NCBI GenBank assembly: GCA_001777915.1
Contig: MFFN01000002.1
Location: 124,001-188,000, forward strand
Direction of reading: 5' to 3'
Source of the DNA: Candidatus Edwardsbacteria bacterium RifOxyA12_full_54_48
Lineage (GTDB): Bacteria > Edwardsbacteria > AC1 > EtOH8
DNA length: 64,000 nt
This document shows positions 51,623 to 57,965 of the stretch, piece after piece (positions within the stretch are counted from its first letter, which is position 1; every line of letters begins with the position of its first letter). The translations under genes were made by a program, and so were the position numbers. The notes under the pieces are model-generated. The model searched no databases. It had not been told where the DNA came from and saw only the letters and a list, made by a program, of their open reading frames with translations.

Positions 51623-51637
51623 TGAAAACGTTCCTCA

Positions 51638-51675
51638 ACCAAATCGGTAAAATCTGCGAAAATCAGCGTCCCATT
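51638..51675. repeat. Direct repeat, left copy (38 bp)
   Basis: It begins ACCAAATCGGTAAAATCTGC and ends ATCAGCGTCCCATT. It matches 52258-52295 at 34 of 38 positions in the same orientation. It includes the stop and last codons of the AT-rich gene at 51663. Confidence 0.8.
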
Positions 51676-52157: not shown

Positions 52158-52257
52158 ATAACATTTCACAATTAATGTTATGCCTATATCCCTTGGTGGT
52201 TACAGATCCTTCGGCTTGCCAGGCAAGTTTGTCGGACTCAGGATGACCCTACACAAA

Positions 52258-52295
52258 ACCAAATCAGTAAAATCTGCGTTTATCAGCGTCCCATT
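52258..52295. repeat. Direct repeat, right copy (38 bp)
   Basis: It differs from the left copy (51638-51675) at 4 positions, three of them one AAA/TTT triplet. With the left copy it brackets the AT-rich gene; the two starts are 620 bp apart. The upstream bases 52208-52247 contain CTTCGGCTTGCC and CTCAGGATGAC, remnants of the MITE-like family at 49498. Confidence 0.8.
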
Positions 52296-56061: not shown

Positions 56062-56309
56062 TCGCCCTCCCTCAGGGAATAGCTGTACTGCTCGATCACC
56101 GGGTTGGACAGGATCTGCCGGCACATCTGGTCGACCTTTTTCTCCACCGCCTTCCGGTCGTGGCTGTCGAACCGCACCTGGATGAACTTGCCCATCCGGA
56201 CCTCCTCGATGTCCCGGTATCCCATGGTCTCCATGGAGCGTTTGAGGGTGGTGCCCTGGGGGTCCAGCACCAACTCCTTCAGGGTGACATGGATCTCAGC
56301 TGTCAGCAA
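56058..56309 (-). CDS. purS: Phosphoribosylformylglycinamidine synthase subunit PurS
   Basis: An 83-residue subunit that bridges PurQ and PurL. It has the family pattern VTLKELVLDPQGTTLKRSMETMGY and IQVRFDS. The start appears to be TTG at 56309, with AAGGAG about 8 bases upstream; no suitable ATG is present. It overlaps pssA by 14 bases and purQ by 4. Confidence 0.92.
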   Translation of the reverse strand: MLTAEIHVTLKELVLDPQGTTLKRSMETMGYRDIEEVRMGKFIQVRFDSHDRKAVEKKVDQMCRQILSNPVIEQYSYSLREGE

Positions 56310-57045
56310 TTTTTCTTCTCCTTTTGTTCTTCAATTTTTCCATGTGGCTTGATCGGTAGATCCTCCAAATCAGACCGAACAGGATGTATCCGGTCAGGAT
56401 GGGGAAAAGCGTCAGGTTGGGATTTTTAATGATGCCCAGGATGGCCAGCATGAACCCGCCGTAGATCAGATAGGATTTGAAGCTGCGGTCGGCCATCTTG
56501 GGGATGGGCGGATATTCGATGTCGCTGACCATCAGGAAGGAAAGCAGGATGATCACCAGCGGGATGAAGCGCACCAGGGACAGGTCGTAGCCGACGGCGT
56601 TGCTGAACAGCAGGAAGCTGGCCACCACCCCCCCGGCCGCCGGGGTGGGCAGGCCGTGGAAGATCTCCTTCTCGTTCAGGCTCTTGATGTTGGCGTTGAA
56701 GCGGGCCAGCCGGATGGCCCCGGCCACCACGAAAGCGAAGGCGGTCAGGCTGCCCCACAGCCCCAGGTTCTTCAAGGCCAGCGGGTAGATCAGGATCATG
56801 GGGGCCAGCACGAAGGACACCACGTCGGACAGCGAGTCCAGCTCGGCCCCGAAGCGGCTGTAGTGGTGGGTCAGCCGGGCCACCATCCCGTCTATGGAAT
56901 CGAAGAAGCCGGCCAGGATGATCAGCCAGGCCCCCCGGTAATAGTTGCCGTTGAAGGCCTCGATGATGGCCAGCACCCCGCAGAACAGGTTTCCGCTGGT
57001 GAAGACGCTGGGCAGGAACGCCGGGGTTTTGATCTTGGGTTTCAT
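56296..57045 (-). CDS. pssA: CDP-diacylglycerol-serine O-phosphatidyltransferase
   Basis: A 249-residue integral membrane enzyme making phosphatidylserine. The CDP-alcohol phosphotransferase motif DGMVARLTHHYSRFGAELDSLSD (DGxxAR...G...D...D) lies at ~52-74, and about seven hydrophobic helices are seen. Its product feeds psd just upstream. It starts 5 bases after the relic psd tail described at 57046-57110. It overlaps purS, so phospholipid and purine genes are coupled. Confidence 0.95.
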   Translation of the reverse strand: MKPKIKTPAFLPSVFTSGNLFCGVLAIIEAFNGNYYRGAWLIILAGFFDSIDGMVARLTHHYSRFGAELDSLSDVVSFVLAPMILIYPLALKNLGLWGSLTAFAFVVAGAIRLARFNANIKSLNEKEIFHGLPTPAAGGVVASFLLFSNAVGYDLSLVRFIPLVIILLSFLMVSDIEYPPIPKMADRSFKSYLIYGGFMLAILGIIKNPNLTLFPILTGYILFGLIWRIYRSSHMEKLKNKRRRKIADS

Positions 57046-57103
57046 TTCATAAAACCTATTTATTGAATATGGCGATCGGGGTGACGCCCCCTTTGACCCT
57101 GTC

Positions 57104-57314
57104 GCGATACCGTGATTTATCCGACGAAGTATTTGTTTTACCGTTACGAAGTCGGAACGATATCGCTATAAATCATCAAGGCTCTGCCGAGCCTTACTCT
57201 CAGGCCGCCCCAGCGGCCTCTATGAACGACCAGCGATAGGCTTCAGGCTATCGCTGAAAGATTAAATTTCGCCTCATCTAACCTGAAATCACAATCTGTG
57301 ATTTCAAGTTAGAT
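57104..57314. other. Array of five hairpins at the 3' end of psd, upstream of pssA
   Basis: Five inverted repeats follow one another. TGATTTAT (57113-57120) pairs ATAAATCA (57168-57175), enclosing CCGAC/GTCGG. AAGGCTC pairs GAGCCTT (57178-57195). AGGCCGC pairs GCGGCCT (57202-57219). CAGCGATAG pairs CTATCGCTG (57231-57256). A long stem at 57276-57314 has one mismatch and holds the psd stop codon. Beyond it, 57057-57110 (minus strand) reads RDRVKGGVTPIAIFNK and a stop, echoing the psd end DRVKGGVTVIGSMDGDI. The gap 57046-57308 has no other gene. Confidence 0.75.
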
Positions 57315-57965
57315 ATCACCGTCCATACTCCCTATCACCGTCACCCCGCCTTTTACCCTGTCCCCCACCTTCACATTGATCTTGGTGCCCAGCGGCAGCA
57401 GCAGGTCTATCCGGGAGCCGAACTTCATCAGTCCCATCCGCTGCCCGGCGCTTACCTCATCTCCCAGTTTGGGATAGCACACCACCCGGCGGGCCAGGAT
57501 CCCGGCGATCTGTTTCATCAGGATCTTCCCGTAGGGGGTTTCGATCCCCAGTTGCATCTGCTCGTTGGCCAGCGAGGCCTTTTCCTCGAAGGCCGGAAAG
57601 AATTTGCCGGGATGGTACTGCTGGTATACCACCCGGCCGGAGATGGGGATCCAATTGATGTGGACATCCAGGGGAGATAAAAAGACGCTGACCTGCATGA
57701 CCTTTTTCCTGAACAGAAATGCATCCTCGGTCTCCCGGACGATCACCACTTTGCCGTCGGCCGGGGATATCAGCCGGCCCGGAAGATATTCCCCCTGCCG
57801 GGCCGGATCGCGAAAGAAGAACATCATGAACAGGGCCACCACCGCAAAGGCCAGGGTCAGATAGGCCGTTATCTGGTTTTTGGTGATCAGCCAGGCCGCC
57901 AGGGCGATGACGAAGAACAGCCCGGCGATGGCGATGGTCGGCATTCCCTCCGGGGCCAGCTTCAT
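57309..57965 (-). CDS. psd: Phosphatidylserine decarboxylase
   Basis: A 218-residue short-form proenzyme that makes phosphatidylethanolamine. It has two N-terminal hydrophobic segments, SPADGKVV, FLSPLDVHINWIPISG with catalytic-type Asp/His, and the self-cleavage site MKFGSR (Gly183-Ser184) that yields the pyruvoyl group. The last ~9 residues (VIGSMDGDI) differ from a second tail found beyond the hairpin array, so the present C-terminus may be secondary. It overlaps the next upstream gene (GGDEF-like) by 4 bases. Confidence 0.95.
   Translation of the reverse strand: MKLAPEGMPTIAIAGLFFVIALAAWLITKNQITAYLTLAFAVVALFMMFFFRDPARQGEYLPGRLISPADGKVVIVRETEDAFLFRKKVMQVSVFLSPLDVHINWIPISGRVVYQQYHPGKFFPAFEEKASLANEQMQLGIETPYGKILMKQIAGILARRVVCYPKLGDEVSAGQRMGLMKFGSRIDLLLPLGTKINVKVGDRVKGGVTVIGSMDGDI

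Follow-up and report, generated by a model that had tools for sequence, protein, structure and literature searches.

Among the closest described systems are the palindrome-associated transposable elements (PATEs) of Haloquadratum, whose palindromes are entered by small mobile repeats (PMC3119063). A second relevant system, named "insertion with long target duplication", was reported for restriction-modification genes of H. pylori (Nobusato et al., 2000, in the account given by the passages citing it in PMC3031569 and PMC1643837). Here, we analyzed the junction between psd and pssA in a window of 64,000 nucleotides (G000:C2:124001-188000, where G000 is the Candidatus Edwardsbacteria genome that carries the window). 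On the minus strand psd with hairpin H5 is followed by hairpins A, B, C and D, by the short remnant DRVKGGVTPIAIFNK-stop and finally by pssA (Table 1).

Table 1. Features of the psd-pssA junction, in positions of the window.
Feature	Position	Strand	Remarks
psd (phosphatidylserine decarboxylase)	57309..57965	-	PF02666, E 1.3e-41; current tail GDRVKGGVTVIGSMDGDI
H5, separate hairpin	57276..57314	.	18-nt arms; holds the psd stop
Hairpin A of the dispersed ABCD element	57231..57256	-	CAGCGATAGCCTGAAGCCTATCGCTG
Hairpin B of the ABCD element	57202..57219	-	AGGCCGCTGGGGCGGCCT
Hairpin C of the ABCD element	57178..57195	-	AAGGCTCGGCAGAGCCTT; in relatives letters replaced, pairing kept
Hairpin D of the ABCD element	57104..57168	-	Interrupted by palindromic ~42 nt, about 57113-57155
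Whole ABCD element	57104..57256	-	Quasi-palindromic PATE/REPIN-like repeat, non-autonomous IS200-type candidate
Displaced old psd tail	57056..57103	-	DRVKGGVTPIAIFNK-stop, 48 nt; 51/54 nt as in the intact G002 psd tail
pssA (CDP-alcohol phosphatidyltransferase)	56296..57045	-	PF01066, E 1.6e-20

The original prediction had described positions 57104-57314 as a single run of five hairpins. The hairpins are real and the last of them does contain the psd stop (TAA, 57309-57311), but they do not form one unit: H5 is separate, and A to D make up the dispersed element. A strict counter found four hairpins in the 211-bp spacer, and the 301 other 211-bp stretches of the window contained at most three (mean 0.37). 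The stretch that interrupts hairpin D in the window is a palindrome itself (TCCGAC...GTCGGA).

Comparison of the psd-pssA junctions in sister genomes revealed an empty site in the congener G002. There, psd has a single tail of the old type, DRVKGGITPIAIFNK-stop, and pssA follows directly. While the window remnant matches this tail almost completely, it agrees with the psd end of its own genome at only 30 of 54 nucleotides. The junctions are also compact in the outgroup genera (G004, G005 and G007). The empty site, the high identity and the compact outgroup junctions together identify the remnant as the displaced ancestral psd tail, as had been proposed. It was likewise correct that the DRVKGGVT codons of the two copies agree at 19 of 24 bases; all five differences fall on third codon positions. 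Over a 23-nt core of the psd tail the copies match at 19 positions, and 424 control stretches reached 16 at most. The distance to pssA needed revision, since only an out-of-frame ATG lies 5 bases past the remnant stop and the in-frame pssA ATG is 10 bases away.

The current psd tail is of a VIGxM type that is common to G001, G003, G008 and G009. In G001, G008 and G009 this tail is present although the ABCD element is absent at psd. ABCD is therefore probably not the source of the new tail, and the idea that one element both inserted and supplied psd with a new end had to be given up. G003 carries ABCD at the same psd site (~87% over 210 bp), with an uninterrupted hairpin D and the same junction between D and the tail as in the window. 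Beyond psd, this genome additionally contains an ORF and two further partial copies of the tail, and a copy of H5 follows the second psd tail copy. Other relatives contain different DNA at this position: a ParA-like gene follows psd in G008 and a HicB-like gene in G009, and in G001 a methylase adjoins pssA, with a contig break between the psd and pssA sides. The draft assemblies break at these repeats. In G006, ~150 bp lie ahead of pssA together with a possible remnant, IKFNK-stop.

Sliding identity revealed that the pssA side of the junction is 91-96% identical to G002, while the psd side is no closer to G002 than to G001 or G003. Furthermore, the pssA start MKPKIKTP is found only in the window genome and in G002. 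This sequence profile hints that the junction may owe its present form to recombination between relatives, which would have combined a G002-like pssA side with a different psd side. By homologous or homology-facilitated recombination, psd together with its tail, the hairpins and the element would have come from a G003-like relative, with a crossover within the psd tail and the recipient tail left behind; the D-tail junction in common with G003 fits this as well. However, such an event leaves the origin of the second tail in the donor unexplained, as well as the same pattern at many other genes, and a G001-specific base in the lysC head copies of G001 points to local duplication instead. The identity profile is thus suggestive of an import of psd without being decisive, and as the full explanation we consider recombination rather unlikely. 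A later recombination between relatives has probably also shaped the window junction, since its arrangement of first tail, hairpin, ABCD and tail is common to G003 while the old tail and the pssA start are G002-like.

We next turn to the ABCD element itself. Copies occur elsewhere in the window genome and in relatives, which bears out the original view of the array as a structured repeat of mobile type. A covariance model built from 14 copies located about 50 sites, distributed over seven genomes from two genera of Edwardsbacteria; three additional members of the same family and 51 more distant genomes gave none. The layout is A (AGCGATA...TATCGCT), CATCA, B, C, TGATG and D (AGCGATA...TATCGCT). 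Stems A and D have changed on both sides with pairing retained, and stem C occurs in several variants, all of them paired (GGCTC/GAGCC, CCCCGAT/ATCGGGG, TGGTCA/TGACCA and others). These pair counts exclude the alignment of both-strand model matches, in which the strands are mixed. Small palindromes are nested within ABCD hairpins, the 42-nt one in window hairpin D among them; others were seen at loci L167, L177, L181, L192-L194 and L200.

Conserved stems with compensatory changes, located inside a putative operon, would also be compatible with a regulatory RNA or a processing element of the psd-pssA mRNA, which had been offered as an alternative. Against this, copies of the element are scattered over many unrelated sites, also next to a transposase gene, and ABCD is nearly its own reverse complement, with the covariance model scoring both strands. 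An Rfam search with the element matched no family. Nothing positive in favor of an RNA function emerged, and we regard it as improbable.

Y1 transposase genes are associated with the hairpins in three genomes. Such a gene is located between hairpins B and C on contig C6 of the window genome, after A-B on contig C64 of G003 and between ABCD copies in G008. A TnpA gene occupies L100 8016-8459. The transposase matches PF01797 (Y1_Tnp, E 1.9e-26) and scores above the cut-off of the IS200/IS605 model NF033573; with the REP-transposase model NF047646 it reaches 27-29 bits, below the cut-off of 80. Its relatives include solved TnpA structures of the ISHp608 type (PDB). The ABCD family thus combines two traits of PATEs and MITEs, namely dispersed transposase-free copies with subterminal hairpins and, at the same ends, an HUH-Y1 transposase related to IS200 TnpA. 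A conserved REP/REPIN foot (GTAG, GT[AG]G) was seen neither in the 14-copy alignment nor in the site list. Since neither this foot nor the TnpAREP class applies, we do not file ABCD as a REP. The closest resemblance is to a PATE or REPIN, and the transposase gene between or beside the hairpins, the IS200/IS605 match and the ISHp608-type relatives favor the PATE. ABCD is probably related to an IS200-like Y1 element, though non-autonomous itself, and TnpA would mobilize it.

BLAST with hairpin H5 (TTGAAATCACA...TGTGATTTCAA) gave matches at L042 and L048 (G020, a distant family) and at L041 (G004, another genus). From these matches, H5 may be an independent and widespread repeat. The ends of H5, ATCTAAC...GTTAGAT, are attC-like, and integron integrase genes are present in G003 and, broken, in G009, as might be expected for integron-type cassette insertion. 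However, the window genome contains no integron integrase above the family cut-off, neither attI nor an attC array was recognized beside intI of G003, and the boundaries of the inserts are copies of the host gene. We consequently rejected the integron reading as largely refuted and give it next to no weight. The integrase gene in G003 (L093 7418-8398, contig C70) is intact and that in G009 (L098 148-1129, contig C29) is apparently frameshifted; no attC array was recognized near these genes.

The situation at psd is not unique. At several loci, 33-140 bp of the start or end of a core gene flank accessory cargo. We take the genes concerned to be lysC, atpK, ymdB, uvrB and comEC from our reading of their translations; folD, V-ATPase B and an acyl-CoA dehydrogenase gene are affected as well. 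The comEC tail is present three times in G008, and the ymdB tail is duplicated in G002, as is the atpK tail in G000, G001 and G003. Heads are duplicated for folD (G000), V-ATPase B (G002, G003 and G006) and lysC (four copies in G001, two each in G000 and G002). In G000 the uvrB head and the acyl-CoA dehydrogenase tail are duplicated, the latter being single-copy in relatives, which have other DNA downstream. Several of the tail-type repeats terminate a few bases or less from the stop codon. Among the cargo we found a BglII-type endonuclease with an MT-A70 methylase, a C5 methylase with Vsr, and N6/N4 methylases. Long target repeats thus surround inserts while the host gene stays intact, and a relative has the target in single copy (psd in G002).

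Further observations concern individual loci. The four lysC heads of G001 (L295 6247-9343, contig C47; 55-92 bp, ~88-97% identical) lie between cargo ORFs in a cassette-like array; the G001-specific base they have in common is the one pointing to local duplication. The BglII-type endonuclease gene adjoins the MT-A70 methylase gene upstream of folD (L100 8894-10188), and directly upstream of folD most genomes examined have differing, often ORF-like sequence (L221-L230), which suggests a second insertion hotspot. Within the window, a 39-bp direct repeat (51637-51675 and 52257-52295, 90%) surrounds a 168-aa ORF downstream of purL and could represent an interspersed repeat instead of duplicated target DNA.

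A site-specific integrative element for which the 3' end of psd serves as attB, and which brings in a replacement tail, would leave exactly an intact gene and a displaced old tail, the classical outcome, and the window would then be its decayed remnant. The different cargo after psd in G008 and G009 would agree with this. Speaking against it, many unrelated genes with different sequences behave alike, and the identity of the tail core is only 83%. No integrase or other recombinase was seen within or beside the psd insert; the tyrosine recombinases found with PF00589 in the window genome are all on another contig, C5. An integrative element at psd therefore appears very unlikely.

To assess gene-end duplications with internal controls, gene-end probes of 95 nt were matched against DNA of the same strand that lay no more than 6 kb away and in no other ORF. 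The scan of the lineage (~0.86 Mb) comprised the window and 400 kb from each of the genomes G000 and G002; the unrelated control G021 contributed another 400 kb. The G000 sample gave nine matches on the expected side, five of them clear (folD, acyl-CoA dehydrogenase, lysC, atpK and uvrB); the others are weak or stem from interspersed repeats. Two matches fell on the wrong side, both in one RHS-type repeat. In G002 we counted six on the expected and four on the wrong side; one interspersed repeat accounts for three wrong-side and two expected-side matches, and the expected-side excess is modest. The 400 kb of G021 gave zero matches in any class. The window also gave zero, as the psd copy is too short for the threshold and the psd case rests on direct comparison. 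Expected-side counts are thus separate from wrong-side and control counts; the raw counts include repeats, and clear cases were split from interspersed repeats by eye after the matches had been seen. The test was designed after the pattern had partly been noticed in the same data, with G002 and G021 as independent samples, and the G000 result is supporting evidence rather than a calibrated rate.

Taken together, we favor, with moderate confidence, the reading that cargo entered the psd-pssA junction by an insertion of the long-target-duplication type and that the insert now holds a hairpin element. This type of insertion has been known since 2000, and we know of no agreed mechanism for it. We infer the following course of events, including the origin of the long duplications. 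In an ancestor, DNA would have entered the 3' end of psd in such a manner that the insert came to be flanked by two copies of the psd tail. One, upstream and now diverged, would close the intact psd; the other, downstream, would be the old tail stranded ahead of pssA. In the window genome the insert now contains H5 and one ABCD copy. TnpA would have moved the latter by recognizing its terminal hairpins while the DNA was single-stranded, and this movement would create no target duplication. ABCD insertion as the maker of the duplications was dropped, since flank duplication is absent at most single-copy ABCD sites. The tail duplication would rather belong to a broader process of cargo insertion at gene ends, with ABCD as one occupant of the site. 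Against this reading stands the limited similarity of the window tail copies, which have only 19 of 23 nucleotides in common; the copies would therefore be old, or one of them imported.

More speculatively, Edwardsbacteria could possess an undescribed mobile-cassette process, a tentative idea that we consider rather unlikely. In this process, each small cargo unit would be bounded by 33-140 bp copied from the start or end of a core gene, a copy that the unit either brings along or generates. Arrays of units would build up next to the unbroken gene, exchange could occur through the repeats, and ABCD and the Y1 transposase may take part. The loci illustrate how, in nature, genes are gained at operon junctions without breaking the host gene; for comparison they offer an empty site as well as several gene families. 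The many instances, the arrays of up to four copies and the related genomes make the duplication mechanism testable in this lineage. A further addition is a family of four-hairpin repeats that is structurally distinct, shows compensating changes and is linked to an IS200-like transposase.

Like PATEs (PMC3119063), ABCD elements are short, lack a transposase and have palindromes near both ends that resemble IS200/IS605-type ends, and other small palindromic repeats reside inside the palindromes. They may also resemble PATEs in making no target duplication of their own, as most single copies have no flank repeats. Unlike PATEs, ABCD has two hairpins per half and a closing CATCA/TGATG stem, is about 113 bp long and nearly self-complementary, and occurs in a bacterial phylum, where its mobility is putative. 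With REPINs and REPtrons with TnpAREP (PMC3116915, PMC6006769) it has in common the inverted hairpin doublet, the dispersed copies and a transposase gene flanked by the same repeats, but it differs in the missing GTAG foot and in a transposase of IS200/IS605 rather than REP type. Integron cassette arrays likewise have cargo separated by repeated short sites; in Edwardsbacteria, however, a piece of the neighboring core gene serves as the repeated site, and no integrase accompanies it. As in the H. pylori insertions, as far as the citing passages describe them, accessory DNA, often restriction-modification genes, lies between long and variable direct target repeats. Compared with that description, the Edwardsbacteria insertions occur at the starts and ends of core genes and repeatedly at one gene, with up to four copies, and they bring in cargo other than restriction-modification genes in an uncultured phylum.
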